37,392 nucleotides of DNA, taken from a virus. Positions 14,875 through 33,900 of the stretch are shown here, piece by piece. Under the pieces are notes generated by a model. That model saw only the letters and a program-made list of their open reading frames with translations. It was not told the origin of the DNA and ran no database searches. Position 1 is the first letter of the stretch, and the number at the start of each line of letters is the position of its first letter. The stretch is from IMG/VR virus record IMGVR_UViG_3300013130_000014, positions 1 through 37,392 of that record; one strand, 5' to 3'. Position numbers and translations under genes: made by a program.

Positions 14875-17800
14875 ATGGCAACAGCACAAGTTAATCAAAA
14901 AGTTTTTGTATCACCTGGTGTTTATACTTCTGAGACGGACTTATCGTTCGTGGCACAGAGTGTCGGTGTTACAACCTTAGGTTTGGTTGGTGAGACAATT
15001 AAGGGTCCAGCTTTCGAACCAATTTTTATAACAAATTACGATGAGTTTCAGGCCTACTTCGGTGGTTCTGAACCAACTAAATTTGTGAATACACAAATCC
15101 CAAAATATGAGGCGGCTTACATCGCTAAGTCTTATTTACAACAATCAAACCAATTGTTCGTTACAAGGGTGCTCGGTTTGTCAGGTTATGATGCGGGTCC
15201 TTCGTGGAGTATAACTGTAAATGCAAATGTAGACCCTACAACTATCGGTTTGTCTACAGGTGTCGGAACGGCTTTCACAGTTAATTTTGAGGGTAACTCA
15301 ACAGGTAATACATTTAGTTTTACAACAGGGTCACTACCTCCAGCGGTAACTGCAGAACTATTCCAACAATATAGAATGGCTGATGGTAGTACGTCTACTA
15401 TCTTTGCTGATATATCATCACAAATTGGTTTAATTTTAGATACACCATCTTTATCCTCAACAACTTCCGTTTTTTACGGTGCAATTGATGAGACAGATTA
15501 TTGGAATGTTGTTGACCAATTTTCAGCGGTTACAAATCAATATGCTTGTGACTCTGTAAATTTGGCTCAAAACGATTTGACAGCGGCAAGTAATGACGCT
15601 TGGTATTACGCTAATTTCGGTAATTATTCTGCAGACAATTATTCGGGATATTCTTGGTATTATACTGTATCAAGTCTATCAGGTGATGGTAATTCAAACT
15701 TTGTGGGTACTATAACAGGTATGTCTTATAATTTCTCAGGAACTGCTTTCGGAGAATATAATGGAATGGTAGTTGCTACACTTCGTTCGAGAGGTATTTC
15801 CTTATTCACAAATGATGCAGATAGTGATAATCACGGACCTGTTTATCAGGTAACTGGTCTAACTGATGTTGTGCTTGTTTGTTCAAATCAGTATTCAGGA
15901 ATTACAAATGACCCATTCAACGTCGCTGGTTTCTTGATTTCAGGTATCACTAATGATAATGATACTTTCTCATTCGAAACTTCTTTAGCGGCTTCTTCAT
16001 CGAAGTTCTTAACTAAAGTTTTGGGTGTTGATAATTTTGGTAAATCTAGAACTGAGGTTCCTTTGTTTGTAGAGGAAATATATCCAAGTAGTTTAGCTTA
16101 CGCATATAATCAAGGTTATATTCGTGGTCTAAATTGTAATTTGATTGCTCTACCTGGTGCTAGAAGTGAAAACCCTCAATCTATTGCTTATAAAGTTACT
16201 CAATACAAATCACCAGAAACTCCTTTCTTCGTTTCTGAGTTGAGAGGTAATAAAGTTTATAATTTATTCAAGTTAATTTCTATATCTGATGGTGATTTAG
16301 CTAACACTGAAATCAAAGTTTCAATCACGAATATTTCTTTCAACAATATGTCTTTCGATATACTTGTAAGAAACTTCTTTGATACAGATGCTAATCCGAT
16401 TGTGATTGAGAAGTTTACTAACTGTAACTTAGACCCTGATGATAATAATTTCATAGGTGTTAAAATCGGTACTTCAAATGGTGAGTACGCGTTACTTTCA
16501 AAATATATCATGGTTGAGATGGCGGATGAAGCTCCTATTGATGCTTTACCTTGTGGATTCTATGGTTATAGACAAAGAGAATACGGTGATGTAACAGTGA
16601 ATCCTTCTCCCTATATAAAATATAAAACTAAGTATGATTTTCCTGGTGAGGTTATTTTGAATCCTCCTTTCGGTACAAGTACTGGTGGAAGTAATACTGT
16701 AGAATCTCCTGGCGATATCGTTAGAAGAAGTTATCTCGGTTTCTCTACTCAGATTGGTATTGATGAGTCTTTCTTGTCTTACAAAGGAGCTCAAAATCCT
16801 ATCGATTGGGTTAACTCAGCATTACCTGTTGATGGGGCTAGATGGAATGTACTTTCAAAAGGTTTCCACATGGACTCAGGTGCTACGGTTGTTACAATTG
16901 CTAACAGCTTCTTGACTAGTGGTGAAACCGCTTTCGAGTGCGGAACCGCTGATTTTAGAAGCGACCCAGAGACACAAGAGAATCCATATTACTTCATCTA
17001 TTCAAGAAAGTTCACTACATGTTTTGCAGGTGGTTTTGATGGATGGGATATCTATAGAGAGTTCAGAACAAATCAGGATAGATTCCAACTTGGTTCAAAC
17101 GGTTATTTGGCAGGTTCTTCACCTTCTCAAAGATACCCAACAGCAACAGGACAAGGTTTATTCAAGAGAATTGTTGTTCAGAATAATACACAAGATTTCG
17201 CAAACACTGACTACTACGCTTATTTGCTTGGTATCCTAACGTTTGCAAATCCTGAATCAACTAACATCAACGTGTTCGCAACTTCATCAATTGATTATGT
17301 AAATAACTCCAACTTGGTTGAAGAGGCAATTGACATGGTACAATTCTCAAGAGCTGACTCTGTATATATTGCAACAACTCCTGACTACTTCATGTATACA
17401 CCTGACGGAACAAACTCCTTGGATATAATTTATCCTCAAGAAGCTGTTGATAATTTGGACAATACAGGAATTGATTCTAACTATACTGCAACATACTATC
17501 CTTGGATTCTAACAAGAGATACGGTTAATAATACACAAATATACTTACCACCAACGGGTGAGGTTTGTAGAAACTTAGCTTTAACTGATAATATTGCTTT
17601 TCCATGGTTCGCTTCGGCGGGTTATACGAGGGGTCTTGTTGATTCAATCAAAGCGAGAGTGAAGTTGACTCAAGAAGATAGAGATACATTGTATCAAGGA
17701 AGAATCAACCCTATCGCAACATTTGCTGATGTAGGAACAGTTATTTGGGGTAATAAAACATTACAAGTTGCTGACTCTGCACTCAATAGATTAAATGTAA

Positions 17801-18096
17801 GAAGATTGTTGTTACAAGCTCGTAAATTAATTTCAGCGGTGGCTGTTAGATTGTTATTCGAACAGAACGACCAAATTGTTAGACAACAGTTCTTAGATTC
17901 GGTTAACCCAATCTTAGATGGTATCAGAAGAGACAGAGGTCTTTACGATTTCCGTGTAACGGTTTCTTCTTCACCTGAAGATTTGGATAGAAACACACTT
18001 TCAGGTAAAGTTTACCTTAAACCTACGAAGGCACTTGAGTTCATAGAAATTGAATTCTTTATAACTCCAACAGGAGCATCCTTCGAAAATATCTAA
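14875..18096 (+). CDS. Contractile tail sheath protein (gp18-like)
   Basis: The main tail sheath subunit, which contracts to drive the tube into the host. The N-terminus (FVSPGVYTSETDLSFV, then GLVGETIKGPAFEPI and FITNYDEFQAYFGG) is the standard sheath opening. The C-terminal 175 residues are diagnostic: FPWFASAGYTRGLVD, DTLYQGRINPIATFADVGTV, IWGNKTLQ, LNRLNVRRLLLQARKLI, LLFEQND, and a terminal strand block with GKVYLKPTKALEFIEIEFFI. At 1073 residues it is about 400 longer than T4 gp18 (659). The extra mass lies mostly between residues about 105 and 580, as Ser/Thr/Asn/Gly-rich beta segments likely to form surface-exposed domains. The gene ends just before a strong G/C hairpin terminator, consistent with very high expression. 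Confidence 0.95.
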   Translation: MATAQVNQKVFVSPGVYTSETDLSFVAQSVGVTTLGLVGETIKGPAFEPIFITNYDEFQAYFGGSEPTKFVNTQIPKYEAAYIAKSYLQQSNQLFVTRVLGLSGYDAGPSWSITVNANVDPTTIGLSTGVGTAFTVNFEGNSTGNTFSFTTGSLPPAVTAELFQQYRMADGSTSTIFADISSQIGLILDTPSLSSTTSVFYGAIDETDYWNVVDQFSAVTNQYACDSVNLAQNDLTAASNDAWYYANFGNYSADNYSGYSWYYTVSSLSGDGNSNFVGTITGMSYNFSGTAFGEYNGMVVATLRSRGISLFTNDADSDNHGPVYQVTGLTDVVLVCSNQYSGITNDPFNVAGFLISGITNDNDTFSFETSLAASSSKFLTKVLGVDNFGKSRTEVPLFVEEIYPSSLAYAYNQGYIRGLNCNLIALPGARSENPQSIAYKVTQYKSPETPFFVSELRGNKVYNLFKLISISDGDLANTEIKVSITNISFNNMSFDILVRNFFDTDANPIVIEKFTNCNLDPDDNNFIGVKIGTSNGEYALLSKYIMVEMADEAPIDALPCGFYGYRQREYGDVTVNPSPYIKYKTKYDFPGEVILNPPFGTSTGGSNTVESPGDIVRRSYLGFSTQIGIDESFLSYKGAQNPIDWVNSALPVDGARWNVLSKGFHMDSGATVVTIANSFLTSGETAFECGTADFRSDPETQENPYYFIYSRKFTTCFAGGFDGWDIYREFRTNQDRFQLGSNGYLAGSSPSQRYPTATGQGLFKRIVVQNNTQDFANTDYYAYLLGILTFANPESTNINVFATSSIDYVNNSNLVEEAIDMVQFSRADSVYIATTPDYFMYTPDGTNSLDIIYPQEAVDNLDNTGIDSNYTATYYPWILTRDTVNNTQIYLPPTGEVCRNLALTDNIAFPWFASAGYTRGLVDSIKARVKLTQEDRDTLYQGRINPIATFADVGTVIWGNKTLQVADSALNRLNVRRLLLQARKLISAVAVRLLFEQNDQIVRQQFLDSVNPILDGIRRDRGLYDFRVTVSSSPEDLDRNTLSGKVYLKPTKALEFIEIEFFITPTGASFENI

Positions 18097-18103
18097 TATA
18101 AGA

Positions 18104-18130
18104 GGGGGGGACAAAATCCCCCCTTTTTTT
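18104..18130 (+). terminator. Rho-independent terminator after the sheath gene
   Basis: Seven G (18104-18110), a 7-base loop ACAAAAT, six C (18118-18123) and seven T (18124-18130). It lies 8 bases after the sheath stop and only 8 bases before the next ATG, with no TATTTAT element between. Confidence 0.9.
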
Positions 18131-18138
18131 AATTTCCT

Positions 18139-18966
18139 ATGAGAAGAATTGTTTTAGAGGCTTTTATTGATGAGAAAACTCCAGAGTTAAAGTATTACGC
18201 TTTCGATTGGGACGACAATATTGTTCACATGCCAACTAAGATTTTAGTAAAAGATGATGAGGGTGAAGAGGTCGGTATGAGTACTGAGGACTTTGCTGAA
18301 AACAGACAGCAAATAGGAAAAAAAGATTTTGATTACAATGGTCACACAATTGTTGGTTACTCCGATGAACCATTCAAGTTTTTTAGACGTGAAGGTGATA
18401 AACAATTTTTGATTGATGCAATGTCCGCAAAGCCAGGACCAGCATGGAAAGATTTTGTTGAGTCTATAAATAATGGTTCAATTTTTGCAATTATCACAGC
18501 TCGTGGTCATAATCCAAATATACTCAAAGAAGCGGTTTATAACTATATCATAAACGATTACGAAGGTATAAATAAAGGAGAACTATTAAAGAATCTTAGA
18601 AAGTATAGAAGTTTCACAGACGAAGAAAATCTAACTGATGAAGAATTAATAAGGTCTTATTTGGAGTTGAACAAATACCATCCAGTTTCTTTTGGGAATG
18701 AAGAGAGTGCTGCAAGTCCTGAACAATTAAAGGTCATTGCGATGGATGATTTTGTGAGTTATATAAAAAGTATGGCTGCGATTCTTAATAAAAAAGCATT
18801 CCTCAAAAAAGATGTAGGAAATAAGTTTGTACCTAATAAACCAGTAATAGGTTTTTCAGATGACGACCCTAAAAATATAGAAGTAATGAAAAAACATTTT
18901 GAAAATAAACCAGATGCTATTAAAACATATTCTACAGCTGGTGGAACAAAAAAAGAAGTGAGTTAA
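18139..18966 (+). CDS. HAD-superfamily hydrolase-like protein
   Basis: This 275-residue protein carries the haloacid dehalogenase motifs. Motif I is YAFDWDDNIV with Asp23 and Asp25 as nucleophile and acid/base. Motif II is IITARGHNP (Thr about residue 120). Motif IV is IGFSDDDPKNIEVM (adjacent Asp about residues 239-241). The spacing allows a large cap of about 110 residues between motifs II and IV, rich in charged helices. HAD enzymes mostly hydrolyse phosphate esters; the substrate cannot be inferred. It sits between sheath and tube genes, directly behind a strong terminator and without an evident promoter, so it is probably made at low level by read-through. A function in virion assembly is possible but unproven. 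The motif II 'TARG' form recalls phage and host 5'-nucleotidase-like HADs. Confidence 0.7.
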   Translation: MRRIVLEAFIDEKTPELKYYAFDWDDNIVHMPTKILVKDDEGEEVGMSTEDFAENRQQIGKKDFDYNGHTIVGYSDEPFKFFRREGDKQFLIDAMSAKPGPAWKDFVESINNGSIFAIITARGHNPNILKEAVYNYIINDYEGINKGELLKNLRKYRSFTDEENLTDEELIRSYLELNKYHPVSFGNEESAASPEQLKVIAMDDFVSYIKSMAAILNKKAFLKKDVGNKFVPNKPVIGFSDDDPKNIEVMKKHFENKPDAIKTYSTAGGTKKEVS

Positions 18967-19017
18967 CGATATCATTTTTAAAAATTGAAGTAAATAGAAA
19001 TATTTTCAATAACCCTA

Positions 19018-19025
19018 TATTTATA
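19018..19025 (+). promoter_or_regulatory. TATTTATA element upstream of the tail tube gene
   Basis: Full context CCTATATTTATAGG (19014-19027), in which CCTATA and TATAGG are inverted repeats around TT. The core ends 34 bases before the ATG at 19060. The surrounding 93-base gap between HAD and tube genes shows nothing else recognisable. Confidence 0.5.
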
Positions 19026-19059
19026 GGTAATAAACAAAGAAAACAAAATCTAATATATT

Positions 19060-19548
19060 ATGGCTGATTTACTGATGAAAATGCCAATACCTTACGAACC
19101 GAAACGTCAGAATCGATTCATTCTAAGATTTCCTTCGAGCTTGGGTATTAATGAGTGGTTTGTAGAATCGACTGCAAGACCACACATCACAATTGTGGCA
19201 ACTGAAATCCCTTTCTTGAACACATCTACGTATGTTGCAGGAAGATTCACTTGGCAAACCTTAAACGTTACATTCAGAGACCCAATTGGACCATCTGCAG
19301 CTCAAGCTCTAATGGAGTGGGTTCGTTTACACGCTGAATCAGTAACAGGTCGTATGGGTTACGCTGCAGGTTATAAGAAAGATATTGACCTCGAGATGTT
19401 GGACCCAACAGGAGTTGTTGTGGAAAAGTGGATTTTGTACGGAACGTTCTTGTCTGATGTTAACTTCAACAACCTAGCATACAATACGGACGGACTTGCA
19501 ACAATCACAGCGACACTCAGAATGGACAGATGTGTTCTTGTGTACTAA
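19060..19548 (+). CDS. Tail tube protein (gp19-like)
   Basis: The subunit of the inner tail tube, 162 residues, the same size as T4 gp19 (163). The family layout is clear: an N-terminal FILRFPSSL-like strand after 'QNRF', a W-F-V-E-S-T-A-R-P segment, FTWQTLNVTFRDPIGPSAAQ, LMEWVRLHAE, and a C-terminal half with a DLEMLDPTGVVVEKWILYGT block and LATITATLRMD. These match the gp19/Hcp-type tube fold, which stacks as hexameric rings. It is the second major tail protein after the sheath and is followed by a TATTTATA element and a very strong hairpin terminator. Tube followed by chaperone and tape measure is the usual tail gene order. Confidence 0.93.
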   Translation: MADLLMKMPIPYEPKRQNRFILRFPSSLGINEWFVESTARPHITIVATEIPFLNTSTYVAGRFTWQTLNVTFRDPIGPSAAQALMEWVRLHAESVTGRMGYAAGYKKDIDLEMLDPTGVVVEKWILYGTFLSDVNFNNLAYNTDGLATITATLRMDRCVLVY

Positions 19549-19551
19549 TAG

Positions 19552-19559
19552 TATTTATA
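19552..19559 (+). promoter_or_regulatory. TATTTATA element between tube gene and terminator
   Basis: Context TAATAGTATTTATAAAAAA, directly after the tube stop. It is followed by a strong terminator before the next start at 19620. If it is a promoter, its transcript would carry the terminator in its leader (attenuation); if not, the element has another role. Confidence 0.4.
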
Positions 19560-19580
19560 AAAAAAACAAATTAATTATAT

Positions 19581-19619
19581 TTAACCGTATAGGACTAAAC
19601 TATACGGTTAATTTTTTTT
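19581..19619 (+). terminator. Strong terminator abutting the chaperone start codon
   Basis: A perfect 12-bp stem TTAACCGTATAG / CTATACGGTTAA (19581-19592, 19600-19611) with a 7-base loop GACTAAA is followed by eight T. The next gene's ATG begins at the very next base (19620). It should sharply limit transcription from tube into chaperone. Confidence 0.92.
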
Positions 19620-20363
19620 ATGCAAGACCAATCAAGAGAATACGGACAAAGAGAGATGACACTACCACATGACGTGGTACCTTTACCTTCTGGTGGAGTG
19701 TTTTATAAGAATAAAAAGAAATCACTTAAAGTAGGGTATTTGACCGCTCAAGATGAAAACATCTTGATGGCGGGTGGAAACGACCTGACTATAACACTAC
19801 TCAGAAATAAAATCTACGAACCAGATGTAAGAATTGAAGATTTACTTCAAGGTGATGTAGAAGCTGTTCTAATATTTTTGAGAAACACAGGATTCGGACC
19901 CGAAATGTCTTTATCTCTTAAAGACCCCAAAACAGGTAACCCCTTCAACGCAACCGTTATGTTAGACCAACTTTCAACAATTGAGGGTCAAAAACCAAAC
20001 GAAGACGGGACATTTACAGTACAACTTCCAAAAACAAACTCAACAGTAAAATTGAGACCGCTCAGTTATGGTGAGATATTGGACATTGACAAACAAGTAG
20101 AAACATATCCACAAGGAAGAGTTGCTCCAAAGATTACTTGGACATTGAACAAACAAATTGTTGAGGTCAACGGAACTACGGACAAAGGGGAAATCGCAAA
20201 GTTCATCGAATCTTTGCCGATTATGGATTCTAAACATATCAGAAAGTTCTTGAACGAAAATGAACCGAGATTGGACATGGTCCGAGTTGTAATAGCCCCA
20301 TCAGGAGAAAAACTAGCTGTCAACGTTGGTTTTGGGGTTGAATTTTTTCGCCCTTTCTTCTGA
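19620..20363 (+). CDS. Tail/baseplate assembly chaperone (gp26-like), zero-frame product
   Basis: This 247-residue protein matches the T4 baseplate-protein family (gp26 type). Its opening contains LPSGGVFYKNKKKSLKVGYL followed by TAQDENIL, an IEDLLQGDVEAVLIFLRNTGFG helix region, a SLKDPKTGNPF turn, LRPLSYGEI and an SLPIMDSKHIRKFL segment. Proteins of this type act as chaperones on the tape measure during tail-hub assembly. The gene lies exactly where tail assembly chaperones occur, between tube and tape measure, and its frame runs into a second frame near its end (see the separate entry). The 0-frame product ends GVEFFRPFF-stop. The ATG follows directly on a terminator T-tract with no ribosome-binding site visible, consistent with low expression for a chaperone needed in small amounts. 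Confidence 0.75.
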   Translation: MQDQSREYGQREMTLPHDVVPLPSGGVFYKNKKKSLKVGYLTAQDENILMAGGNDLTITLLRNKIYEPDVRIEDLLQGDVEAVLIFLRNTGFGPEMSLSLKDPKTGNPFNATVMLDQLSTIEGQKPNEDGTFTVQLPKTNSTVKLRPLSYGEILDIDKQVETYPQGRVAPKITWTLNKQIVEVNGTTDKGEIAKFIESLPIMDSKHIRKFLNENEPRLDMVRVVIAPSGEKLAVNVGFGVEFFRPFF

Positions 20364-20502
20364 GTATAGGAAAGGACAAATTGACGAATACTACTATCTT
20401 ACAACACTGATGAATGTCAGTTATACAGATTTTGAAAAAATGCCAATTTTTATTAGGAAGTACATGTTGGATAAGTGGATTGAAGAACATAAGAAGGACT
20501 GA
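20347..20502 (+). CDS. Frameshift extension of the tail assembly chaperone
   Basis: In the +1 frame relative to the chaperone, an open stretch runs from the TTTTTTC run (20343-20349) to TGA at 20500-20502. Slipping the Phe codon TTT (20346-20348) by +1 to TTC (20347-20349) keeps Phe pairing and would add 50 residues after Phe243, giving a 293-residue fusion. A -2 slip on the same T run reaches the same frame. The extension contains EYRKGQIDEYYYLTTLM and FEKMPIFIRKYMLDKWIEEH, which looks like genuine coding sequence and like the C-terminal parts of tail chaperone frameshift products. A free-standing start (ATG 20410) would give only 30 residues. Frameshifted chaperones between tube and tape measure are well known, mostly -1; a +1/-2 event is less common. 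No experimental proof is available here. Confidence 0.6.
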   Translation, partial: FALSSEYRKGQIDEYYYLTTLMNVSYTDFEKMPIFIRKYMLDKWIEEHKKD

Positions 20503-20519
20503 GAAAAATCAGTCCTTTT
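20494..20519 (+). terminator. Rho-independent terminator after the chaperone extension
   Basis: A 9-bp stem AAGGACTGA / TCAGTCCTT with loop GAAAAA is followed by a short T run (20516-20519). The TGA of the frameshift extension forms part of the 5' stem. Its position right after the +1-frame stop supports that frame being the real gene end. Confidence 0.8.
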
Positions 20520-20520
20520 G

Positions 20521-20528
20521 TATTTATA
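20521..20528 (+). promoter_or_regulatory. TATTTATA element upstream of the tape measure gene
   Basis: Follows the terminator immediately (order terminator, element, gene) and ends 16 bases before the ATG at 20545. This order fits an independent promoter for the tape measure gene. Confidence 0.5.
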
Positions 20529-20544
20529 TAGAAAATAACCTACT

Positions 20545-22503
20545 ATGTTTCAAATGAGCGGTGAAGACCCGAACGTGAAATCTCTTAAGAGTATCACAGA
20601 CGAGCTTAAAGACTTAGCGGAAAACTTTGGCGCCCGATTAGGGGACACGATGACAAACCTCATCGTAAAAGGTTATGAAATCAATAAGATTTTCGGACAG
20701 ACTGGGGAAAGGTTAATTGAGATACAACAAGCAGCCTCAGACGCAATACCATCGATAACAAGACTTGGTGGTAATATTGATAGCGTCGGTCAAATCATGT
20801 CCGAAGTTGCAAAGGAATCCCTCAGAAACACAATCGCGACCACAGACCAAATGGAGAAACTCTATGCTACCTTTAGGGTAACGGGGTTAGGTGTGGGAAC
20901 ATTGACCAAGAGTTTTTTAGAAGCCGGATACGGATTGAACAAGGTTGGGGATGAGATGGAGAGCGTAGTAAACTATGTTAGAAGTATCGGGGGAAATGTT
21001 GAACAAGTTACAAAATCTGTTGTGAGCAATCTTGACGCGGTTAACAGATTCTCATTCGAAAAAGGTGTAGCTGGTTTTACCAAAATGGCGGCACAAGCTT
21101 CCATTTTGAGATTCGATATGCAAAACACTTTGGATTTTGCAGATAGGGTTATGAACCCCGAAGGTGCAATCGCCATGGCATCCGCATTTCAAAGACTCGG
21201 TGTTGCTGCAGGAAGTATAGGAGACCCATTCTCCATGTTGAACCAATCCATAACAGACCCATCAGGACTTCAGGATAGTTTAATTAACATTGGTAAACAA
21301 TTCGTTGAGTTCAACAAAGAAGCAGGTAAGTTCCAAATTAGTAGAGAGGGTGTTTTAAGATTACGAGAAGTGGAACAAGAGGCTGGATTGGCTAGAGGTA
21401 GTTTATCTAAAGCAGGTATTGCAGCAGCAGAACTCGATGCAAGATTATCCCAAATAAGTCCTTCGATAAAGATCAAAAATGAAGAAGATAAGATGTTACT
21501 AGCTAACATCGGAAGAATGGGGGATGGCGGTCAATACGAGGTGCAGATTGAACCAGGTGGAGACTATGTGAAACTGAGTCAATTGGGTCAAAAACAAATA
21601 GATGAACTTATAAAAAAACAAGCAGAAGCACCAAAAGATATGGAGGAAATTGCGAGAGCTCAAATGAGAATCGACGAAACAATTTCCGCGGATGTAAAAG
21701 TAATTAAAAACACACTTCTGTATGGTGCTGCAAGCCAAACAGGTGTTTTAAGGGAAACGCAAAGGTTTGGTAATGTTGCTAGAAATATGGGTGGAGAAGT
21801 CTCTGGTATGGCTAGCACACAGGGCACTAGAAGAATGTTTGAAAAAGCGGGAGATGTTCTCAAAGAACTCGGGAAAGATATTTTACAAGGTAGAGGTATG
21901 ACAAACGCCGAAAAGTATGTCAAGGCATACGAAGGACTCGGCACGGAAGTAAAAGACTTTTTAAAGGAAGCATTCGGAAAGGCGGTAGAAGCGGGGAAAA
22001 AAGAACTCAAGGCTGACGAACTCACCTTTATCAAAGACTTCTTGAAAAAACAAGGATTTGACTACAACGATTCTTTAAAAACAATCAACGATAAATTAGA
22101 GCAAAACAAAACCCAAACCCAACCAACAACAATACCCTACCAAATGCAACCAGCCAACACTCCAAAACCTTTGGGGATTGATTTCAAACCAGATGAAAAA
22201 GTAAGAACAGATTATCAAAAACAGAATGTGCCTGAAAATTTTGTTCGAGGTGATAGAGAGATGGCACAAGCCGTGACAAATGTCAACCAAGAGAACGGGA
22301 ACATGACAATTACACAAAAAGTCTCAATCGACCCATGGACCATAACGGTAAACGCACCGGCAGGAGTTGACAAACAATATCTAAGTAATGTATTGAACTC
22401 TAACGAGTTTAAAGCAGGGTTCACAGAACAAATCATGAAATACATGAAAGTTGATAAAGGGAATCAGACTATGCCACCTTTCGCATATCAAAAAATGGTT
22501 TAA
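20545..22503 (+). CDS. Putative tape measure protein
   Basis: This 652-residue, mostly helical protein follows the tail chaperone, the usual place of a tape measure. The N-terminal 300 residues are amphipathic helices with Ala/Gly/Ser/Val-rich stretches (for example IAMASAFQRLGVAAGSIG), which could form the inner filament. Residues about 500-560 are Pro/Gln/Thr-rich (TQTQPTTIPYQMQP), a flexible linker. The C-terminal 60 residues hold a short beta segment (NMTITQKVSIDPWTITV) before a final helix. No long transmembrane segments are obvious. T4 gp29 has 590 residues, so the size is comparable. Identification rests on gene order, length and composition rather than on a conserved motif. The stop codon lies within a 7-bp hairpin. 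Confidence 0.6.
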   Translation: MFQMSGEDPNVKSLKSITDELKDLAENFGARLGDTMTNLIVKGYEINKIFGQTGERLIEIQQAASDAIPSITRLGGNIDSVGQIMSEVAKESLRNTIATTDQMEKLYATFRVTGLGVGTLTKSFLEAGYGLNKVGDEMESVVNYVRSIGGNVEQVTKSVVSNLDAVNRFSFEKGVAGFTKMAAQASILRFDMQNTLDFADRVMNPEGAIAMASAFQRLGVAAGSIGDPFSMLNQSITDPSGLQDSLINIGKQFVEFNKEAGKFQISREGVLRLREVEQEAGLARGSLSKAGIAAAELDARLSQISPSIKIKNEEDKMLLANIGRMGDGGQYEVQIEPGGDYVKLSQLGQKQIDELIKKQAEAPKDMEEIARAQMRIDETISADVKVIKNTLLYGAASQTGVLRETQRFGNVARNMGGEVSGMASTQGTRRMFEKAGDVLKELGKDILQGRGMTNAEKYVKAYEGLGTEVKDFLKEAFGKAVEAGKKELKADELTFIKDFLKKQGFDYNDSLKTINDKLEQNKTQTQPTTIPYQMQPANTPKPLGIDFKPDEKVRTDYQKQNVPENFVRGDREMAQAVTNVNQENGNMTITQKVSIDPWTITVNAPAGVDKQYLSNVLNSNEFKAGFTEQIMKYMKVDKGNQTMPPFAYQKMV

Positions 22504-22542: not shown

Positions 22543-25500
22543 GTGGGAAGTCCTTTAGATTTTGTAAGTTCAGACGGTTTCAGAAAAAGGCTCATAACAA
22601 GAAACCTTACACCGTACGCTAAAGCGCCAAGCAGACCCACGCTCCCCATAAACGTAGAATACGTTCAATCGGATACCTCCGTACAAGATAGTCCCGACCA
22701 GTTAATTGACGAACCATCTTTTGCCAATCAACTATATCCACTTAACCAGTATGGAAATGAGGGTGGATATAAACAAGTACCTGACCCAAATGCACTTCTT
22801 AACTCTAAATCAAATGAAGGGGAGTATGGAGTACAAGATGCAAGGATAATCGACGAAGCTTTACCCGAATCACAAAAGTGGAAACCACTCAACACTTTCT
22901 CGAATGGTAATCAATTACCAATCGACGGAGCTGAGTTTATATCAAGTTTAGACAGACCTGCAGGATATTCTAACAGGTTCAACAATCAACCATATCCACA
23001 GTTCAACTATTCAAGTTATGGTCCCGTTTCAATTCTATTATCCCCTGACCCACAGGGTAGTAACGGGCTATTGAGTAGGGATTCATTTATTGCCAAGTTA
23101 GGTGCTGCAACTCTGAGAGATTTATTCCAAAAAAGAATTGCAACGCAGATTGTAAGACAAACGGTCGGAAGGGCCAACGCGTTCAATGTTAGAGGAGGGA
23201 CAGATGTTTTAAGTATTGTAACAGGAAGAGTTCCAATCATAGAACCAAATTACCAAATTACAATCCCCGCTAACCCGATAATTGCGGCGACAGATTTTGC
23301 TTTAAGACTTGCCGGAAGTACAATCCCTATATCACCAATTCCAGGAAACTACTTCGACCCTAACACATCACTTATACAACCTACGACAATCCAACAAATG
23401 ACTAATGCTTTTAGAAAGTCTGGTGTCGGTAAGTTTTTCAATAGATTGTTGGGTGGTGGGCAGACAGGTTCACAAATCATGTATAATAACATGGGTGGTG
23501 GACAAAAGTCACGTTTATTCAATAATATAAATTATAATAGATACAAACCTAGTTTTGACAGAACCTTATTTGACAGACTTGCAGGTGCATTAGTGGGGTC
23601 TACAACAAACAATGCAAACTATTACATAGGTAGTTTGAGCTCAGACCCCTCAAGAGTTTTTTCACCAGCAGGAGACATACCAGTCAATTCATATGGTATT
23701 GAACAACAGTCACCTGTTTATGGTCCTTCAGAACTCGCTCAACTATATGAGGGTCCAAGTAAAGACATAAGACTTGGAGCAAACGGTCCAATTTACTCCA
23801 ACGGTGGTGGTATTGAAGGTGGTTTCACTTGGGTATCAAAAAAATATAAAGGTAATGCAGGAAAAACAGTAGGTATTAATGGTGAAATCGTAAACCAAGA
23901 TGAGGATTTCAAACCATCGTCATACAACACTACAGAATCAACAAACCGCGAGTATACCCAAGGGTCTATATTGGACGATACACAAAGAATTATTGATAGC
24001 CAACCACAAGGTGGTAAAAGATTACAACATGTCGGAAACGCTATTGACCAAGTATCAAAAGTATTCAACGACGGATATAAAGAACTCACAAAAGGTTCGA
24101 GAGTTTATAAATACGTCGGGGAAATCGGACAAGAAGTAGGTACGGAATATTGTAGAGTTTTCGCAAAAGATGTTCCTTATTTACAATACAATGATTTACA
24201 AAAGACGGATGGTGTAGTCACAGAGGGAAGAAGATTTTCTTACTCCGTTTTGGATAAAACTTACAACCTTAACATCGCACCAAACAAGCAAGAAGGGGGA
24301 CAAGATTCCTCAAACCTTATTAATGGACCAGGAGGCTCAAGCACAAACGCTGCTTATGCAAAGAAATATATGTTCTCACTTGAAAACCTTGCTTGGAGAA
24401 CATCTTCGACAGCAGGTTTTTCTGTGAATGATTTGCCAATATGTGAAAGAGGACCCAACGGTGGTAGGGTTATGTGGTTTCCCCCTTATGGTTTGACCTT
24501 CAGTGAAAATAGTAACGCAAACTGGAAATCAAACGATTTCTTAGGAAGACCAGAACCAATATATACTTACAACAATACATCAAGAACAGGAACCCTTCAG
24601 TGGAAAATAGTTGTCGACCACCCTTCAGTTCTGAATGTTATCGTTAACAAAGTATTGGCTAAAGAAACTAATAAAACTAGAGTTGATAGTATTTTAGAAT
24701 CATTCTTTGCTGGATGTAGAAAATATGATTTATATGAACTAGCAAAAAAATACTACACAATAAATCCTAACGACCTCTATCAATTACAACAGGCAATCAG
24801 TTCAAAAGAGCTTACAAGAAACCAATTACAGGCCGTAATTGCTAATCAACAAACAGGGAATAATTCTCCGAATGGTGCGACAAATCCAACACAAGGAAAC
24901 GTAAGCACAAACCCATTTGAGAAATATGTCAACAATGCCCTTTATTTCGAAAACGATTTCCCGAAAAAGACTGGAACTTTGGATTATAATACTCTTTATA
25001 ATCAATATATTTCTACCACGAACATTACAACTTACGAGAAAAAATCTCCGAGCACTGCAGAGTCAACAAAAAACTTTTTTGAAAAAGTAGTCAAACCAAA
25101 TAAAAACAAGTTTGATGAAATGGCTAAAGAATTAATTAAAGAACTTAATCAGGCCGAGTCGGGTTCAGTTACCGTAGTGTTAAACTCAAGTGCTTCCGCA
25201 CCGGCAACAGTTGCTTACAATAAGGAACTTTCTTCAAGAAGAATATCTTCGGCACGAAGATTTTTCGATGGATATTCAGAATTAAAAAAATATATTGACG
25301 GTAGTGACCCAAAGAAAAAACTTATTCTCCAACAAGAAGGACAACTAGGGGAACAATCACAAGTCAAACAATATGACGAAAAGGGTAATGAGGTTGCAGG
25401 TAAAACGGTTTCATGTACAGATTCCGACCCACAAGCGGTTGGAGGTGACGTTTCTGTTGGTTCGAAAGAAGTATACACTACGAACGCTATGGCTTGTAGG

Positions 25501-27612
25501 AGAGCATTCATTCTTAGAGTCGAATATAAATTGAATCAACCCACTAATCCCCCACCACCAGGAAATAAACAAAATCCGATAGGAAATGTTGTACCGTCAA
25601 CAACTAGAACCCCACCACCTGAAGACCAGTTGGTTCCAAGAGACAATATTACAAAAAGAATATTAAGAGCCCTTTTATCGGAGTGTGATTACTTCGAGAC
25701 CATCAAGGAAGAGACTCCAATGGTGTATGACAATTTGAAAGACAAATTAAAGTTTTTTCAACCAGCGTTTCACTCAATTACACCAGAGGGTTTAAACTCA
25801 CGATTGACATTCTTACAACAATGTATGAGACCTGGGCAAACGATACCAACCATTAAAGACTCGGGAGAAGGTTTCACTTCGTTGGAATATAATAATGCAA
25901 CCAACACAGCCTTTGGTTCTCCACCTGTTTTAGTATTGAGGGTGGGTGATTTTTATAACACGAAAATTATTCCTGATGGACTACAAATAGCTTATGAAAA
26001 CTTAGACATAAATCCAGAAGGAATTGGCATTCAACCAATGATTGCAACCGTTACATTAAACTTCAAGTTTGTTGGAGGAAGCGGACTTAAAACCTCGATT
26101 GACAAACTACAAAACGCCTTGACTTTCAATTACTATGCGAATACTGAAATGTATGATGACAGAGCAGATGTTACGGATTCAAGTTATAAGGTTATAGATG
26201 CGGATTTCTTGAAGGAGGGATTGGGTACTGCACCTCCATCAAATAATCAAGCAAATATCAACGGTAGAGATAATGACAATACAATCGGTACAATTACCGG
26301 TATAGTGCTTTCGGGAACCACAGGACAAACTGAAGATACGGGCACGATACAGTATACAGACTTTATGACCAAAGCCTTAGAGACCACACAAACGTATTTT
26401 CAAAATATTGTTAATAAGAATAAAGAAATTGTAAGACAATACAATAATGGAGTGCGTCAACAATGGATGACAGAACGAAACTATGTTAAAGGCAATTTGG
26501 TTACCAATATCGAGGATATACCATTATTTGGTAAACCAAACAATGTCCAACAAAGGTTTGATTCAATTTTTGCTAAGTTTATAGAGGAAATAGACAATAA
26601 TTCTGATGGGTTTTTACAATATATCAATGCTGGAAATAACAATTTTAGTCCAACTTTCTTGTCGATAGTTAAGACTAATTACAAAAATTATGTCAATAAC
26701 CTCAAAGGTTCCTATCAGAATGCTATAACAGGAATTATTCAAAGTACGGTTCAACAAGAACAAGGTTTGATTAATGTTTTTGCGAGAATGAACGTTATTA
26801 CTTTCAACGCAGAATCACCTAAAAACACAGGTACAGATGGATTCCAATTTAATAAAGGTCCTGTTAAGATTTATAATATCAGTGGTACTACGAAGGTGAG
26901 TTCCACACCTAACGGAGCAACAGATACATTTACCGAATTGAAAAATGATATTAAAAAAATGGGAGATGATATGGTTGCTTTCAACACCGCAACCACCACA
27001 ACCAGTAAGTTTGTATTCACAGGAGATAAAAAAAGTTACGAAGGAACTTTGGTATTCCCAATCTCACCTAATGACGGAAAACAAAGTGGTGCGGATAAAC
27101 TTACAGTAGACAATGTGTTTTTCCCATTTTCTACTGATTCAAAGTTCACAAGCAACAATTTCAGAAGAGAATATTTTGTTTTGGCTCAGACAATTATAGA
27201 TGAAACGAAATATCAAGATTTCAAAAACAAACTTATAGGTCCACAATTTTTCCAAACCGCACAAGTACCGGTTACAAGTCAAAGAGTATTTGAAAAGTTT
27301 TTTGATGAGTATTGGATTAAGATTTGTAGAAAATTATTCAAACAAGAGAACGACATAACATTACAGTTTATTGACAACTTAGAAAAAGGAAGATTGAAAA
27401 ACTTTGTAATTTATACTCCGTTTACTAAAAAAACAAGAGAGTTAACATTTACTACGGCTAGTTCTGCGAGTGACTCGAACAAATCTGCGCAAAAAACTTT
27501 AATTACTCAGTTGGGTTCTACGACCAACATAAACACCAGTACAAATACTTGGAATGATAAACCAAACGGGGGAGTTCCTTTGGAGTACGTATCCAAGTCT
27601 AAATTGAATTAA
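22543..27612 (+). CDS. Large baseplate protein with tube-initiator-like and OmpA-like domains
   Basis: This 1689-residue protein starts with GTG (22543); no ATG occurs in frame nearby and the TATTTATA element lies 14 bases upstream. Residues about 1-450 are Pro/Asn/Gly-rich. Residues about 615-710 contain GGRVMWFPPYGLTFSE and GRPEPIYTYNNTSRTGTLQW followed by a VVDHPS strand, the look of gp48/gp54 and CIS tube-initiator domains that connect baseplate to tail tube. Residues about 835-1010 resemble an OmpA-like peptidoglycan-binding domain (YNKELSSRRISSARRFF near 891). Residues about 1070-1210 contain FHSITPEGLNSRLTFLQQC and PPVLVLRVGDFYNTKIIPDG and a final beta block, again baseplate-like. The remaining 450 residues are helical, then beta-rich. 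The stop overlaps the next ATG (TAATG). The fused layout suggests several T4 baseplate functions in one chain. Confidence 0.65.
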   Translation: MGSPLDFVSSDGFRKRLITRNLTPYAKAPSRPTLPINVEYVQSDTSVQDSPDQLIDEPSFANQLYPLNQYGNEGGYKQVPDPNALLNSKSNEGEYGVQDARIIDEALPESQKWKPLNTFSNGNQLPIDGAEFISSLDRPAGYSNRFNNQPYPQFNYSSYGPVSILLSPDPQGSNGLLSRDSFIAKLGAATLRDLFQKRIATQIVRQTVGRANAFNVRGGTDVLSIVTGRVPIIEPNYQITIPANPIIAATDFALRLAGSTIPISPIPGNYFDPNTSLIQPTTIQQMTNAFRKSGVGKFFNRLLGGGQTGSQIMYNNMGGGQKSRLFNNINYNRYKPSFDRTLFDRLAGALVGSTTNNANYYIGSLSSDPSRVFSPAGDIPVNSYGIEQQSPVYGPSELAQLYEGPSKDIRLGANGPIYSNGGGIEGGFTWVSKKYKGNAGKTVGINGEIVNQDEDFKPSSYNTTESTNREYTQGSILDDTQRIIDSQPQGGKRLQHVGNAIDQVSKVFNDGYKELTKGSRVYKYVGEIGQEVGTEYCRVFAKDVPYLQYNDLQKTDGVVTEGRRFSYSVLDKTYNLNIAPNKQEGGQDSSNLINGPGGSSTNAAYAKKYMFSLENLAWRTSSTAGFSVNDLPICERGPNGGRVMWFPPYGLTFSENSNANWKSNDFLGRPEPIYTYNNTSRTGTLQWKIVVDHPSVLNVIVNKVLAKETNKTRVDSILESFFAGCRKYDLYELAKKYYTINPNDLYQLQQAISSKELTRNQLQAVIANQQTGNNSPNGATNPTQGNVSTNPFEKYVNNALYFENDFPKKTGTLDYNTLYNQYISTTNITTYEKKSPSTAESTKNFFEKVVKPNKNKFDEMAKELIKELNQAESGSVTVVLNSSASAPATVAYNKELSSRRISSARRFFDGYSELKKYIDGSDPKKKLILQQEGQLGEQSQVKQYDEKGNEVAGKTVSCTDSDPQAVGGDVSVGSKEVYTTNAMACRRAFILRVEYKLNQPTNPPPPGNKQNPIGNVVPSTTRTPPPEDQLVPRDNITKRILRALLSECDYFETIKEETPMVYDNLKDKLKFFQPAFHSITPEGLNSRLTFLQQCMRPGQTIPTIKDSGEGFTSLEYNNATNTAFGSPPVLVLRVGDFYNTKIIPDGLQIAYENLDINPEGIGIQPMIATVTLNFKFVGGSGLKTSIDKLQNALTFNYYANTEMYDDRADVTDSSYKVIDADFLKEGLGTAPPSNNQANINGRDNDNTIGTITGIVLSGTTGQTEDTGTIQYTDFMTKALETTQTYFQNIVNKNKEIVRQYNNGVRQQWMTERNYVKGNLVTNIEDIPLFGKPNNVQQRFDSIFAKFIEEIDNNSDGFLQYINAGNNNFSPTFLSIVKTNYKNYVNNLKGSYQNAITGIIQSTVQQEQGLINVFARMNVITFNAESPKNTGTDGFQFNKGPVKIYNISGTTKVSSTPNGATDTFTELKNDIKKMGDDMVAFNTATTTTSKFVFTGDKKSYEGTLVFPISPNDGKQSGADKLTVDNVFFPFSTDSKFTSNNFRREYFVLAQTIIDETKYQDFKNKLIGPQFFQTAQVPVTSQRVFEKFFDEYWIKICRKLFKQENDITLQFIDNLEKGRLKNFVIYTPFTKKTRELTFTTASSASDSNKSAQKTLITQLGSTTNINTSTNTWNDKPNGGVPLEYVSKSKLN

Positions 27613-27938
27613 TGCCAAACTTTCCTTATTATAACAGATATAGTGAGTTCCTTATCAATGGAGAACAAACAGTTGTGCCTTTTGTAAACATACCGCCAAA
27701 AGTCACAGATAAATCTTATATCTATAAAGTTGGGAGAAGTAGATTAGACCGAGTTTCACAAGAGTTCTATAGTTCTCCTGTTTACAATTGGCTAATTCTA
27801 CAAGCAAATCCTCAATTCGGAGGATTGGAGAATAATATCTATGATGGTGCTATCTTGATTATTCCATTCCCCTTACTACCATCTTTACAGGATTATAAGG
27901 CGGCAATAGAGAATTATTTTTATTATTATGGCAGGTAA
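27612..27938 (+). CDS. Baseplate wedge protein (gp53-like, LysM-type fold)
   Basis: This 108-residue protein matches T4-type gp53, which ties baseplate wedges together. The signature is clear: RLDRVSQEFYSSPVYNWLIL followed by QANPQFGG, a short N-N-I-Y-D-G-A turn and a LIIPFP strand. This corresponds to the family's 'D.ls...Yg.p.yWwli..aN.......i..G..i.iP' LysM-like core. T4 gp53 is about 196 residues, so this is a short, core-only version. It is translationally coupled to both neighbours: its ATG overlaps the previous stop, and its last 11 bases overlap the next gene. Confidence 0.85.
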   Translation: MPNFPYYNRYSEFLINGEQTVVPFVNIPPKVTDKSYIYKVGRSRLDRVSQEFYSSPVYNWLILQANPQFGGLENNIYDGAILIIPFPLLPSLQDYKAAIENYFYYYGR

Positions 27939-30900
27939 TATTCAAGCCGATAACAGCGGTAACATATTAGTAGAATTTGATTATAACAATATTATCGTAG
28001 TTGACCCAAACAAAACAATTGACGATTTCGGGAACGTCAATGAAAGATTGGTTGACCACGAAAAACTTGTTATGTATGCCAATTTAGAGGCTGAAGTTTT
28101 ACCGAGAACTAAGATGGCTGTTGGAGCAAGTCCTAATTCCACAGGGATACAGACAATATCTGTTGCAAAAATCAATTTCTTAAAGCCAACCAAAAACACT
28201 TATTTAGATACAGGGTATTACGACACACTCACTGGTCAAGACACCACAAAAAAGGCAGGTACTAACCAACCTCTCGAAGTCGCTCAAAAGCAAATAGATG
28301 GACAACAACCGTATTTCCAAAACACAGTACAAAACCAAAACGATGTGATTGACCAAGGTTTGCTTGGAATCACACAAATTAATATCACCACAAATACCTC
28401 TTTTATTCCTAATGTTAAAATTGAACTCGAAGATGTACAAGGAAAGGCGCTTTTTCAACTTGGAGAGGACTCACCATACTCTGCATTTTTCAACATGCCT
28501 TACCCTCAATTTTATCTTACTCTTAAGGGTTACTACGGACAAGCGATAAGATATCAATTGCAACTGAAAGACTTTAATTGTAGATTCAATAGTTTCAGTG
28601 GAAACTATCAAATCAGTTTACAATTTTTTGGATACAAGTTCAATATAATGGGTGAAATAAGTATGGGTCATTTATTGGCTATTCCTCACATGTATCCTGA
28701 CACTGTTGAGTTGAAAAACATTCCAGCACAATTACAACAATCTGGTAAACAACAAGACTCTCAAACACAAGGACCCTTAGCAAAAGAGGCATCCAATTCA
28801 CAAACGGGTGTGGCTAAACAAATAGTCACAGAAAGGGGATATCAAAAGATTGTTGAAGTATATGCGGAGTATAAGTCCAAAGGTCTTATACCTCCCGATT
28901 TTCCTGAGTTGACAGTTGCTCAATTGATGCAAAACTTAGAAAACTTTGAGAAAAACATATTGGCTTCTTTTCCCCCTGTCAAATTGGAACCTCTAACTAA
29001 TATCAGAGAGTATAAAAAACAGCTCACAACATATTTCAATGCCGTAAGAGGAGATTTACCATCATCTTGGTTTATTAAATATTGTGACACACAGCCAATT
29101 GTTTTGAGTAACGACAATAGATATTATGTTTTCAAACGAGGCTTGAAAGAAGAGGAGAAGATAAACGCAAGAAGTGAATTACAAGCAATTATCACCGAGA
29201 ATAATGAGATGTTGGCAAGAAACCCGACACTTGGGGCATCAGGGACTAATCCATTACGTAATCCAATCACCTATAAAATGATTTCCAAAAGTGTGGATTT
29301 GAAAAGTATTGATTGGTATAAGACTGCGTCCGCACAAACAGCAATCCCTTTAGAGAAATTAACACCTCAACAAGTAGAAAAAATCAGAATTACTTATCCG
29401 ACATTATTGGCGGGTGAACCAAAAATTGAAGAGGATGAAGAAACAGGTGCCCTACAAATAGAATTGAAACCGCCCGATTTTTTCACTTTCGAGTTCAATA
29501 CACAAGTTGGAACGTTCAACGTACAGATACCGATTTTGGGACAGAGATTTGATGATGCAATAAATCTTCTTAAAGCAAACGCTCAAAATCAATTATCAAG
29601 TTATGAGGCACTCATAACAGCCGAGCTTGCAAAAAAAATTGAAGACACTGCAACAGGGATTGGTTTCAGACCATCAGTTAGAAATATGGTTGCGGTAATT
29701 ATGGCCTCTACAGATGCTTTCGTCAGACTCATGGACGATGTACACGTTAATGCTTGGAGCCAAAGAACAAACCCAATTAGGAAGGATGTAATATTGAATA
29801 ACCCCTCATCTGCGAAAAGTTCGGATAGTTACGACTACGTTGCTATAGCCCCGAACAGTTATATCACAAGAGAACAATTAAAAAATGCCGAGGTACCGGT
29901 ATACCCTTGGCCACAATTTTTTGTAGAAACAAACGAAGATAAGAAAGGACGTTTCCAACTCAAGTATTTGGGAGACCCTTCACTTGTACAATATACGAGG
30001 GGTAACTTATATACTGTTTGGCCAGAGGTTGAGTTTGTCGAAGAATACTTGAGAGGCATTAACCAAAAGTTCAACCCCCCTTTAGCACCCGAGATACTCA
30101 AAAACCAAAACGATACTAATGAAGTTAACATAAACGCTATAGAATTTCCTCAGAGTGATATTGCTTACATCACAAAAGAAGAGATAAGATTTTTATATGA
30201 GATTTGGGAAAGACAATTTATAACAAGTCATTATTCAGGATACAACAGAGCGATGAACAATCAATTTGAGGAACTTATAAAATTGAATACAGAAGTCGAA
30301 GTAAACAACATCGTTACGCAAATTGCATTGAACGCGGTTTTACTAAGTTTCACTTTGAAAAATTATAAGTTGACCTCTGCGAATTTTGAGGATAATTTGA
30401 AAAACGTTTCAAACGCGGGGACAGGTAAATCATGGCAAACATTCATAAGAGATTTATATGTTACCCCTTACTTGAGAGTCGATACAGAAAACCCATTTAG
30501 TATATTATCGTTGGAAAACATAGGTAAGAACCCGTTGAACAATCCAAAAGTTGAGGCATTAGAACAATTAATTAAAAATGTTCCTAACGCACCAAAAATT
30601 GTAGATACATATCCTTTTACAGATTATACGTGGGATTTGGGGAACCTCGCTAATTCGAGTATATCAAAAGATGATTTGGTATTCAAAGCGTCAAGCACTC
30701 TAAAAGTATTCAAGGAAAGAAATATTATTTCTAACTTTTCGGATTTGAATGATTTCACAACCAATAGACCTGTCACAAACTTCGGTTATCTACTTTCACA
30801 GAAGAATCCAACACCACAAAGTAGTTTTGTGATGAGTCAATTTTATCAAACAAGGATGGCAGAACCTAATAAGTTTCTTGCAACCGAAGGAGTGATAACT

Positions 30901-33900
30901 TCAATACCACCAACTGGTTCACCCATCCCCTTTTCATCAACAACCTCTATGTTGAATACTCCGTTTTTTGTGAACGCGATTCAAGAAGGTACTAACAACC
31001 AAAGGTCAAACGCAAGATACCCGTACGTCGCTGCGGCTTATCTATTCCTTAATTCATTACCTTTAGCTTCCCTCAGGGAGAGATATAAAACAGCCACAGA
31101 CAGTAGTTTCACCGAACTCGATTACATTGCATCTTGTTTCAATAAGTTTGGAGCAATCCATAAAGTTCCTTATGCTTGGATTCTAAAGTTAGGTTCCATT
31201 TGGCACAGATATAAAACCTACAAGAATAACGGTAGAGATATTCTTGGTAACGTTTGGAAAGGATTTGATTATAAGAAAAACTATTACCCACCAACAAGTG
31301 ATTTATCACACACATACAATTTCAAGTACAACAAACTCAATGTATCAATTACGGGGCAAAAAATTGAACAACAAACTTTGACTCAAGAAGTTGGATTCTA
31401 TCCACAATTGATTTCCGATTATTGTTATTTTGTTAATGGAGTAGATTTATATTCAGGGTACACTAACGAGGAGATACAAACAAGTATCGATGCTGGTGTC
31501 AGAATACACAATTATTCAACTTCAAACATTACAGGTGCAATTACGGACGGAAAAGTTTATACCGAAAAAACTTGGTCAGTTATTATACCCGAAGCAAACC
31601 TTTTCTTGGAACCAAATGTTTGTGACCCGAACAATAATTCATCGGCACCTGTATATTATATTTGTCCTTCATTCGGTAGTAATGTGAATCAAGTGGTTGA
31701 GGAGTGTTTATCATTCCCTCCTGGTTTGATAACGATACCAACTACACGCACACAGATGGCTGACAACCAAAACATTTTCAATGGTAGTGTGAGATGTTTG
31801 TGGGGAGCTCCGAACTACGGATACTTTGATGTATCTCAGGCTATCATTCCACCAACCGACGCCTACTTGAACCTTATCAACACAGGAAACACTCAATTCT
31901 CGTTTTCGATTTTCGAAAAAGATTATTATTCAAAAATCGAAGAAGTTTTTTCTGTCTTTGAAAAATCACAGCTCGACACAATGGAAACACAATTTTTGGA
32001 TTTTTGTAGAGCTGAAACAAATCAAAGCGTACAAGCCGAGTTTGCAAAATCCGACCAATCAACTGGCGGGATATATACACAATATAGAAACTTTCAGACA
32101 CTGTTCAAAAATATGATGCAGGTAGACGCTCAATTAACGAACAAAGAACAGAGTCAATATTTTAATGATTTATTCGACAATCAACTTCTTTCTTTTGAAA
32201 ACACCGTAAAAAACTTTTTAGAATACGATGTAATAATTAGGAATGGTAATCCTACTAAATATAGAAGAAGAATATTCTATTCATTCATTTCTTACCAAAA
32301 CACACCTGTAGTTGAAGACCCATTACCATTCGCTCCTTATGTTAGAGGTTCGTTACCAAGTGCGAACGGAACAACAACGTTAGCTCAATCAAAAGCACGG
32401 TATCCAAGAGAGTGGAGAACTTTAGAGTTAGAGGTTGGTTTCTCAACTATAGAAAGATTAAGATATTCAGATTTGGGTTCCTATATAACAGACTTTTTCA
32501 TCGATTGTAATCTTGAGTTTTCAACATTGAACATAGAAACTTTGGCACCATTGATAAAAATGTACGCTACACAAAAGTTGAAGAACTCACAATATGATTT
32601 ATCAACATTCCAAAATGATTTGAATACGTATTTCATTGAACAAGAAGTTTTCCAAAATTTATTATTGGATTCCTTACTTACTACACTAAATAATGTTTTA
32701 CCTGATTCACAAATACAGAGTGACAGAAGCACCATATCCGTTTTACAAGGTGAGCAAAGTAAAGTTCAACTTTATGAAATATTCAAATCGCTTAACGATA
32801 AGTGGATTTCAGGGGCAGATTGGAAAGAAAAGACCCTATTTGAAGATATTCTGTTTTTAGATAGAGCATCGAGAGATATCGGTGATACTATATTGATTGA
32901 TATTTTTTCTTTGAAAAACACTTTCAATAAAGATTCAATAAACGCAGCTATGAGTGTTTATACTTTCGTAACAAGTATGATGATTAACAACAACTTCGTC
33001 TGCATGAATCTCCCTGCCTATGTCAACTTCTACAATATACAGGAAGTAAGTAATCAGATTCAAACACCAAAAAATGAGGGGTCCTTGGAATTCGCAAATA
33101 GTCTATGGGGAACTTTCTTAGATGTGGATTATAGAAAATCTTCTCCGAAATTGATTTGTTTCTTTGTACCAAAACCGTCACAATACGTGAATACTCCAAA
33201 ATTCTCGAGATTCCGTTCAGATGCGTTTGATATGAGAAGAGCAACTGATAACCCTCTAATAGAAAATCAAAAAAATAAAACTGATTGGGCTAGGTCAAAC
33301 AGATGTGTTGGTTTCAATGTTGATATTGGAATCAGGAATCAAAATATATTTTATTCTTTCTCAGTATCTCAAGATGCGGGTAAAGCAACCTCAGAAGCGT
33401 TGAATATGGTCGTTCAAATGGCTAATCAGGCTGGAGGTAAGAATTACGCCACCCAAAACGTTAGCTTGTACAATATGTACATGAACAGAAGTTATGCTTG
33501 TCAAGTTGTTTGTTTGGGAAATGCTCTTTTACAACCGATGATGTATTTCAACTTGAGACACGTTCCGATGTTTAACGGACCATATCTAATTCAAGAAGTA
33601 CAACATGCAATCACACCAGGTAACTTCCAAACAACTTTTACAGGTACAAGACAAAGTATTTTTGATTTACCGTCAATAGACAATTATCTACAAAGCGTTA
33701 ATCAAAATCTTTTGACAAAACTTGAACAGATTGTTAAAACAAATAAAGAGGACACCCCAACTGAAAAAACAACTGAACAACAAAAACAATCCTCACTTGT
33801 AAACTCCTCCAAAAACTCTAAAGCGCCATCTAATAGTTGTGTTGCTAAAGTTAATCCTGCTTATCTACCTCCACAACAAGTCTCAGCGGCTTCATGGGTT

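Follow-up and report, generated by a model that had tools for sequence, protein, structure and literature searches.

The stretch of DNA analysed here (the window), 37,392 bases long, is a virus record from IMG/VR and carries a T4-like tail module. Its upstream tail genes span 14875..22503 on the plus strand in the order found in Flavobacterium phage immuto: a tail sheath gene of the T4-like module (14875-18096), a gp19-like tube gene (19060-19548), a gene for a T4 baseplate protein of family PF12322 (19620-20363) and a putative tape measure gene assigned by position (20545-22503). The gene that follows (22543..27612, plus strand, GTG start) encodes a 1689-residue baseplate protein with an OmpA-like domain and is syntenic with immuto26A_236. 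Further downstream on the same strand lie a gene for a small gp53-type baseplate wedge protein of 108 residues (27612..27938, phrog_7145), LysM-like by inspection, and one for a 2488-residue protein in the position of a gp27-like hub (27928..35394), a gene order shared with immuto and other cousins. A gp25-like assignment for the 108-residue product was dropped, as the sequence resembles LysM and the PHROG to which it belongs, a baseplate wedge family, also takes in the immuto counterpart. The sheath protein comprises 1073 residues and matches sheath domains only at residues 839-1071, leaving a large N-terminal part without a match. Elsewhere in this T4-like phage contig, a 511-residue open reading frame (ORF) on the minus strand (9253-10788) contains a complete Fe/Mn superoxide dismutase (residues 36-226, both Pfam domains, E 1e-39), followed by ~280 residues without a match.

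The central part of the 1689-residue protein can be divided into seven segments. The first half of a split baseplate domain (residues 636-693, 24448..24621, plus strand throughout; FPPYGLTFSE..NW..FLGRPEPIYTY.NTSR.GTLQWKIVVDH) leads into a conserved N arm (residues 694-764, 24622..24834), which measures 70-71 residues in all relatives, and then into a flexible linker (residues 765-796, 24835..24930; 22-42 residues in relatives) that consists to 59% of P/G/S/T/N/Q and has low pLDDT at the start of the structural model. The OmpA/Pal-like domain (residues 797-996, 24931..25530; 185-223 residues among relatives) runs strand, helix, strand, helix, strand, insert, strand. It is followed by a Pro/Thr-rich linker, again of low pLDDT (residues 997-1036, 25531..25650; 37-54 residues in relatives), by a highly conserved C arm of exactly 57 residues in all relatives (residues 1037-1093, 25651..25821) and by the second half of the split domain (residues 1094-1175, 25822..26067; PPVLVLRVGDFYNTKII...PMIATVTLNF). 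Mean entropy is 0.5-0.9 bits in the well-conserved arms and host domain, against 2.0-2.3 bits in the variable linkers and OmpA core. For neither arm (694-764 and 1037-1093) was a PDB match found, and nothing corresponding to them could be detected in cousins that lack the insertion. Judged from the alignment and the predicted structure, the OmpA module is tethered, with two fixed-length arms and two flexible linkers that would hold the domain out from the central baseplate domain.

An OmpA-type fold in the baseplate protein

A first-pass annotation of the DNA had proposed an OmpA-like domain at 24990-25560, on the basis of a motif, YNKELSSRRISSARRFF, preceded by a strand, TVVLNSSASAPA. Both elements are present in the 1689-residue ORF, the motif beginning at residue 892 (nt 25216), and the domain itself is upheld by sequence, by predicted structure and by comparison with cousins that lack the insertion; its limits, however, have to be shifted slightly. 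The first strand (residues 799-801, nt 24937-24945) lies upstream of 24990, and the fold stops near residue 996 (nt 25530), with 25531-25560 already belonging to the linker.

Taken alone, the window protein has no OmpA match in Pfam or PHROGs, and the relation emerges only when relatives are included. When 50 relatives were scanned singly, 34 matched the Pfam OmpA family (PF00691, best E 2e-6), and the NCBIfam models for PorE (the best, 4.6e-6) and Pal (8.8e-5) were also matched. A profile built from 50 sequences retrieved 25 chains from the PDB sequences, 24 of them of the OmpA family, at E 0.03 or worse; with 75 sequences the best E-value improved to 2.4e-4 (OmpA, Pal, PorE), and the top 32 matches were all OmpA-family. 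The PF00691 cut-off of 27.2 bits, which is a curation threshold and not a biological feature, is not reached: the window protein has no match, and the baseplate copies of jumbo relatives score 19-21 bits.

An AlphaFold2 model of residues 781-1050 has a mean pLDDT of 81, exceeding 90 in the core. This model matches essentially only OmpA-family folds. Superposition with VIA-align gave Z 10.8 over 139 residues for PorE of the type IX secretion system, which is also the best NCBIfam match, Z 10.0 over 123 residues for diaminopimelate (DAP)-bound Acinetobacter baumannii OmpA and Z 9.2 over 111 residues for TagL of the type VI secretion system. The matches listed by Foldseek are mostly OmpA-family, none with E <0.001, and the best match in a viral structure library, an 'OmpA-like domain-containing protein' of an uncultured virus, is unconvincing (E 0.08). 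In a larger model (residues 395-1245) confidence is low outside the OmpA domain, and the fold of the surrounding baseplate domain has no confident model.

Conservation was assessed in 169 distinct relatives that span the region, which group into 75 clusters when the OmpA-like domain is compared at 70% identity. Features common to the phage domain and the OmpA/Pal/MotB C-terminal domain (PF00691) are the predicted fold, the N..LS..R helix, the GE turn and the RR strand. The 'GE' hallmark (G936-E937, 25348..25353, plus strand, as for the residues below) is present in 169/169 relatives; in MACRR (residues 983-987, 25489..25503), the counterpart of the OmpA NRRV strand, M983, C985 and R986 are found in 169/169 and R987 in 167/169. 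At the end of strand 1, YFEND (residues 801-805, 24943..24957) contains N804, again in 169/169. The phage GE-RR segment differs from that of OmpA/Pal/MotB in being longer and in containing an invariant Cys (C958, 25414..25416; 169/169), with a second invariant Cys, C985, just before RR. Both cysteines (25414-25416 and 25495-25497) occur in 169/169 relatives, and a disulfide or a metal site is possible; a third Cys, in SCSAPA, is common among relatives and is Ala in the window.

Could the likeness be a chance or convergent resemblance of motifs, with no real OmpA domain behind it? The lack of a Pfam OmpA match for the window sequence alone and the Foldseek E-values above 0.001 would fit such an explanation. 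It is nevertheless highly improbable, given that the best E-value of the family profile is 2.4e-4 and its top matches are OmpA-family almost without exception, that single members match the Pfam OmpA (2e-6) and PorE (4.6e-6) models, that the VIA-align Z is about 10 and that the hallmarks are invariant or nearly so. Residues ~797-996 are accordingly described here as a predicted OmpA-fold domain.

Insertion into a domain contiguous in cousin phages

Among 50,697 deposited phage records, tblastn with the full-length protein detected no relative, and a consensus of the flanks gave only a weak match (E = 2), to immuto at the syntenic gene. Since the gene order agreed, this match was taken as a lead and then tested by profile comparison. 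In immuto, the order is sheath, tube, hub protein, tape measure, the syntenic protein immuto26A_236, a gp53-type protein and hub. The same ~150-residue baseplate domain is found in immuto, Microcystis phage Mel-JY01, Rhodothermus phage RM378, the 484-kb LR756508 and 80 IMG/VR loci. Both the gp53-type and the hub gene also lie downstream in Mel-JY01, and the hub gene does so in RM378 and LR756508.

Comparison of the window family with a 62-sequence cousin family (hhalign) gave two segments. Residues 636-693 of the window protein align with cousin positions 32-89 (E 9e-7), and residues 1094-1175 with 87-178; the latter segment is weak on its own (E 0.0015) but is collinear with the first and abuts it. 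The N-terminal half alone gave E 4.9e-9, compared with 0.1-0.8 for control comparisons with other parts of the protein. The two halves of the domain are thus adjacent in the cousins, joining at 87-89, and ~400 residues apart in the window protein. From these alignments, the OmpA module appears as an insertion in a ~150-residue baseplate domain that is contiguous in the cousins: the immuto26A_236, Mel-JY01 and RM378 proteins share the gene position and the domain and lack the insertion. The complete records of four cousins contain no PF00691 match, and an OmpA profile run against them found only a marginal, stop-interrupted stretch in LR756508 (E 0.013), outside the tail protein.

Two features of the cousins' own proteins were observed alongside. 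The protein in the hub position of immuto (L096 9841-12657) has at its C-terminal end a VanY D-Ala-D-Ala carboxypeptidase domain (E 7e-10), which was sought and not found in the 2488-residue counterpart of the window. In the syntenic protein of Mel-JY01 (L098 3-5801), the shared baseplate domain is preceded by a long series of repeats of ~47 residues each (FAQLYDTKYIPESSIFDWDGKRE...).

The blocks that flank the OmpA-like domain had initially been described as tube-initiator-like and as conserved baseplate blocks. The second description holds. The first agrees with gene order, the gene lying between the tape measure and the gp53/hub genes as in immuto, but no match in sequence or structure to solved initiators was found: PDB searches with either half of the flanks or with the cousin family returned no tail protein. 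The putative identity of the surrounding domain as a tube initiator (T4 gp48/gp54-like), like its position in the particle, is taken from gene order.

Close relatives come from uncultivated viruses. Scans of IMG/VR with four starting sequences retrieved 226, 392, at least 599 and 64 encoding stretches, and >600 IMG/VR stretches match the baseplate protein; no relative turned up in bacterial and archaeal genomes scanned by alignment. Several of the matches sit on contigs of 317-321 kb, which makes the lineage at least partly one of jumbo phages. On these sequence data, the lineage appears to be a large group of uncultured T4-like, partly jumbo phages. A host among the Bacteroidota is suggested only by two of the cousins, immuto and RM378, and by the resemblance to PorE.

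The altered pocket and its possible ligands

OmpA-type domains are the usual means by which Gram-negative bacteria attach machines to their cell wall, among them the flagellar motor and the type VI and type IX secretion systems. Here, such a domain sits within the injecting machine itself, and it has lost one contact residue while retaining the rest, as might be seen if the pocket had turned to a new partner or if it still touches the wall. Either outcome would bear on the assembly of contractile baseplates or on their encounter with the envelope. No OmpA domain within a phage baseplate was described in the open-licence papers that we searched.

In TagL, DAP is contacted by Asp486, Asn494, Leu497 and Arg501 (PMC8253398). 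The identical 8-3-4 spacing is reproduced in the window protein by Ser885, Asn893, Leu896 and Arg900. As the first-pass annotation had noted, the DAP-binding Asp is replaced: its position (residue 885, 25195..25197) is Ser in 169/169 relatives and never Asp, a constant difference from OmpA/Pal/MotB. The remaining pocket residues N893, L896 and R900 (25219..25242) are each present in 169/169, so that the LSxxR motif extends to the baseplate proteins of the relatives, its S varying between S, A and G. Since only 14 of ~210 positions are fully invariant (154-sequence set) and the median identity of the OmpA-like domain to that of the window is 41%, this constancy is not a by-product of low divergence. 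The pocket is, as far as the alignment tells, a putative binding site held under constraint without the residue needed for DAP.

This substitution bears directly on the suggestion, made with the initial annotation, that the baseplate grips peptidoglycan. In A. baumannii OmpA, D271A and R286A are reported as critical for DAP binding (PMC6572160), and the first of these positions corresponds to the residue that is Ser throughout the phage family. Canonical anchoring to DAP-type peptidoglycan is therefore disfavoured and would not be expected. Because the key wall-gripping residue is replaced in every relative examined, a new binding job is probable, and from a pocket that is constrained and yet lacks the Asp required for DAP we infer a new ligand.

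The reading that we prefer, with a probability of roughly one half, is that an OmpA module was captured and re-specified as a tethered docking domain in the baseplate. The module would sit on flexible tethers, on a baseplate protein near the tail centre. Its ancestral DAP pocket, with Asn, Leu and Arg kept and Ser in place of the DAP-pairing Asp, would take another ligand, for which the best candidate is a carboxylate-bearing peptide end or loop on an adjacent protein of the baseplate, wedge or fibres, and docking would help assembly, or baseplate locking and release. Consistent with this proposal, the module is tethered, and the N, L, R and Ser are found in 169/169 relatives although the domain is far more variable than its surroundings.

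Two of the same features can be turned against docking. Flexible linkers would also be in keeping with a domain that extends towards the cell, and an invariant N/L/R pocket, with three of the four DAP-contact residues unchanged, is what would be expected if a cell-wall-like ligand were still bound, to which the Ser could hydrogen-bond. The main rival to docking is accordingly noncanonical cell-wall binding, in which the domain would meet the periplasm after contraction and hold peptidoglycan or another envelope component through the modified Ser/Asn/Leu/Arg pocket, keeping the tube steady as injection proceeds. The OmpA module is homologous to domains that bind peptidoglycan, one of its best matches being PorE of the Bacteroidota type IX secretion system, and this would favour such a role. 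Cousins whose hosts are named include a phage of Flavobacterium and one of Rhodothermus, both Gram-negative, and point the same way. Against it stand the absence of the DAP-critical Asp in 169/169 relatives (PMC6572160) and the location of the gene among central baseplate genes and not with those for tip or fibre proteins, and we regard it as possible at well below even odds. A broader form of the idea is slightly more doubtful still: that a jumbo lineage captured a host wall-anchoring domain, re-specified its pocket and made of it a tethered latch in the baseplate centre that would engage peptidoglycan or an envelope ligand at injection.

Known systems offer partial parallels. In TagL, an OmpA domain is likewise tied to a contractile injection machine; TagL, however, is the inner-membrane anchor of a host-side complex and keeps the Asp, whereas the phage domain is part of the tail baseplate protein itself. 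The OmpA/Pal/MotB domains differ similarly in belonging to secreted periplasmic proteins. A peptidoglycan-binding fold does occur inside the baseplates of other phages: both T4 gp53 and A-1(L) gp16 contain LysM domains, with subunits of the wedge and the initiator surrounding gp16 (PMC10966104). Both fold and protein differ from the OmpA-like case, and a gp53-type protein exists in the window too, as the next gene (phrog_7145). By analogy, these LysM domains provide a precedent for the reuse of a peptidoglycan-binding fold in baseplates.

The same precedent would suit pure fold reuse, the other option raised at first, in which the OmpA fold would serve for spacing or packing alone and its pocket residues would be kept for folding; the GE and RR hallmarks are indeed fold-related and nearly invariant. 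This option is not clearly right as it was put. The N, L and R of the pocket stay constant across 75 clusters while the rest of the domain is highly variable, and the linkers, flexible and of variable length, speak against a rigid spacer. We rank a pure spacer as less likely than noncanonical wall binding and consider it improbable.

OmpA-like sequences are also found elsewhere in the lineage. The 318-kb contig of one jumbo relative (that of L311) contains two further OmpA-like ORFs, one of 339 residues that scores above the PF00691 cut-off (L331 1414-2433, minus strand, E 8e-7) and one of 393 residues (L335 757-1938, minus strand, E 0.009). The second directly adjoins a gp23-like major capsid gene (L335 2020-3198; PDB match E 1e-22), and this neighbourhood in one jumbo relative suggests that the OmpA fold recurs among the virion genes of the lineage.
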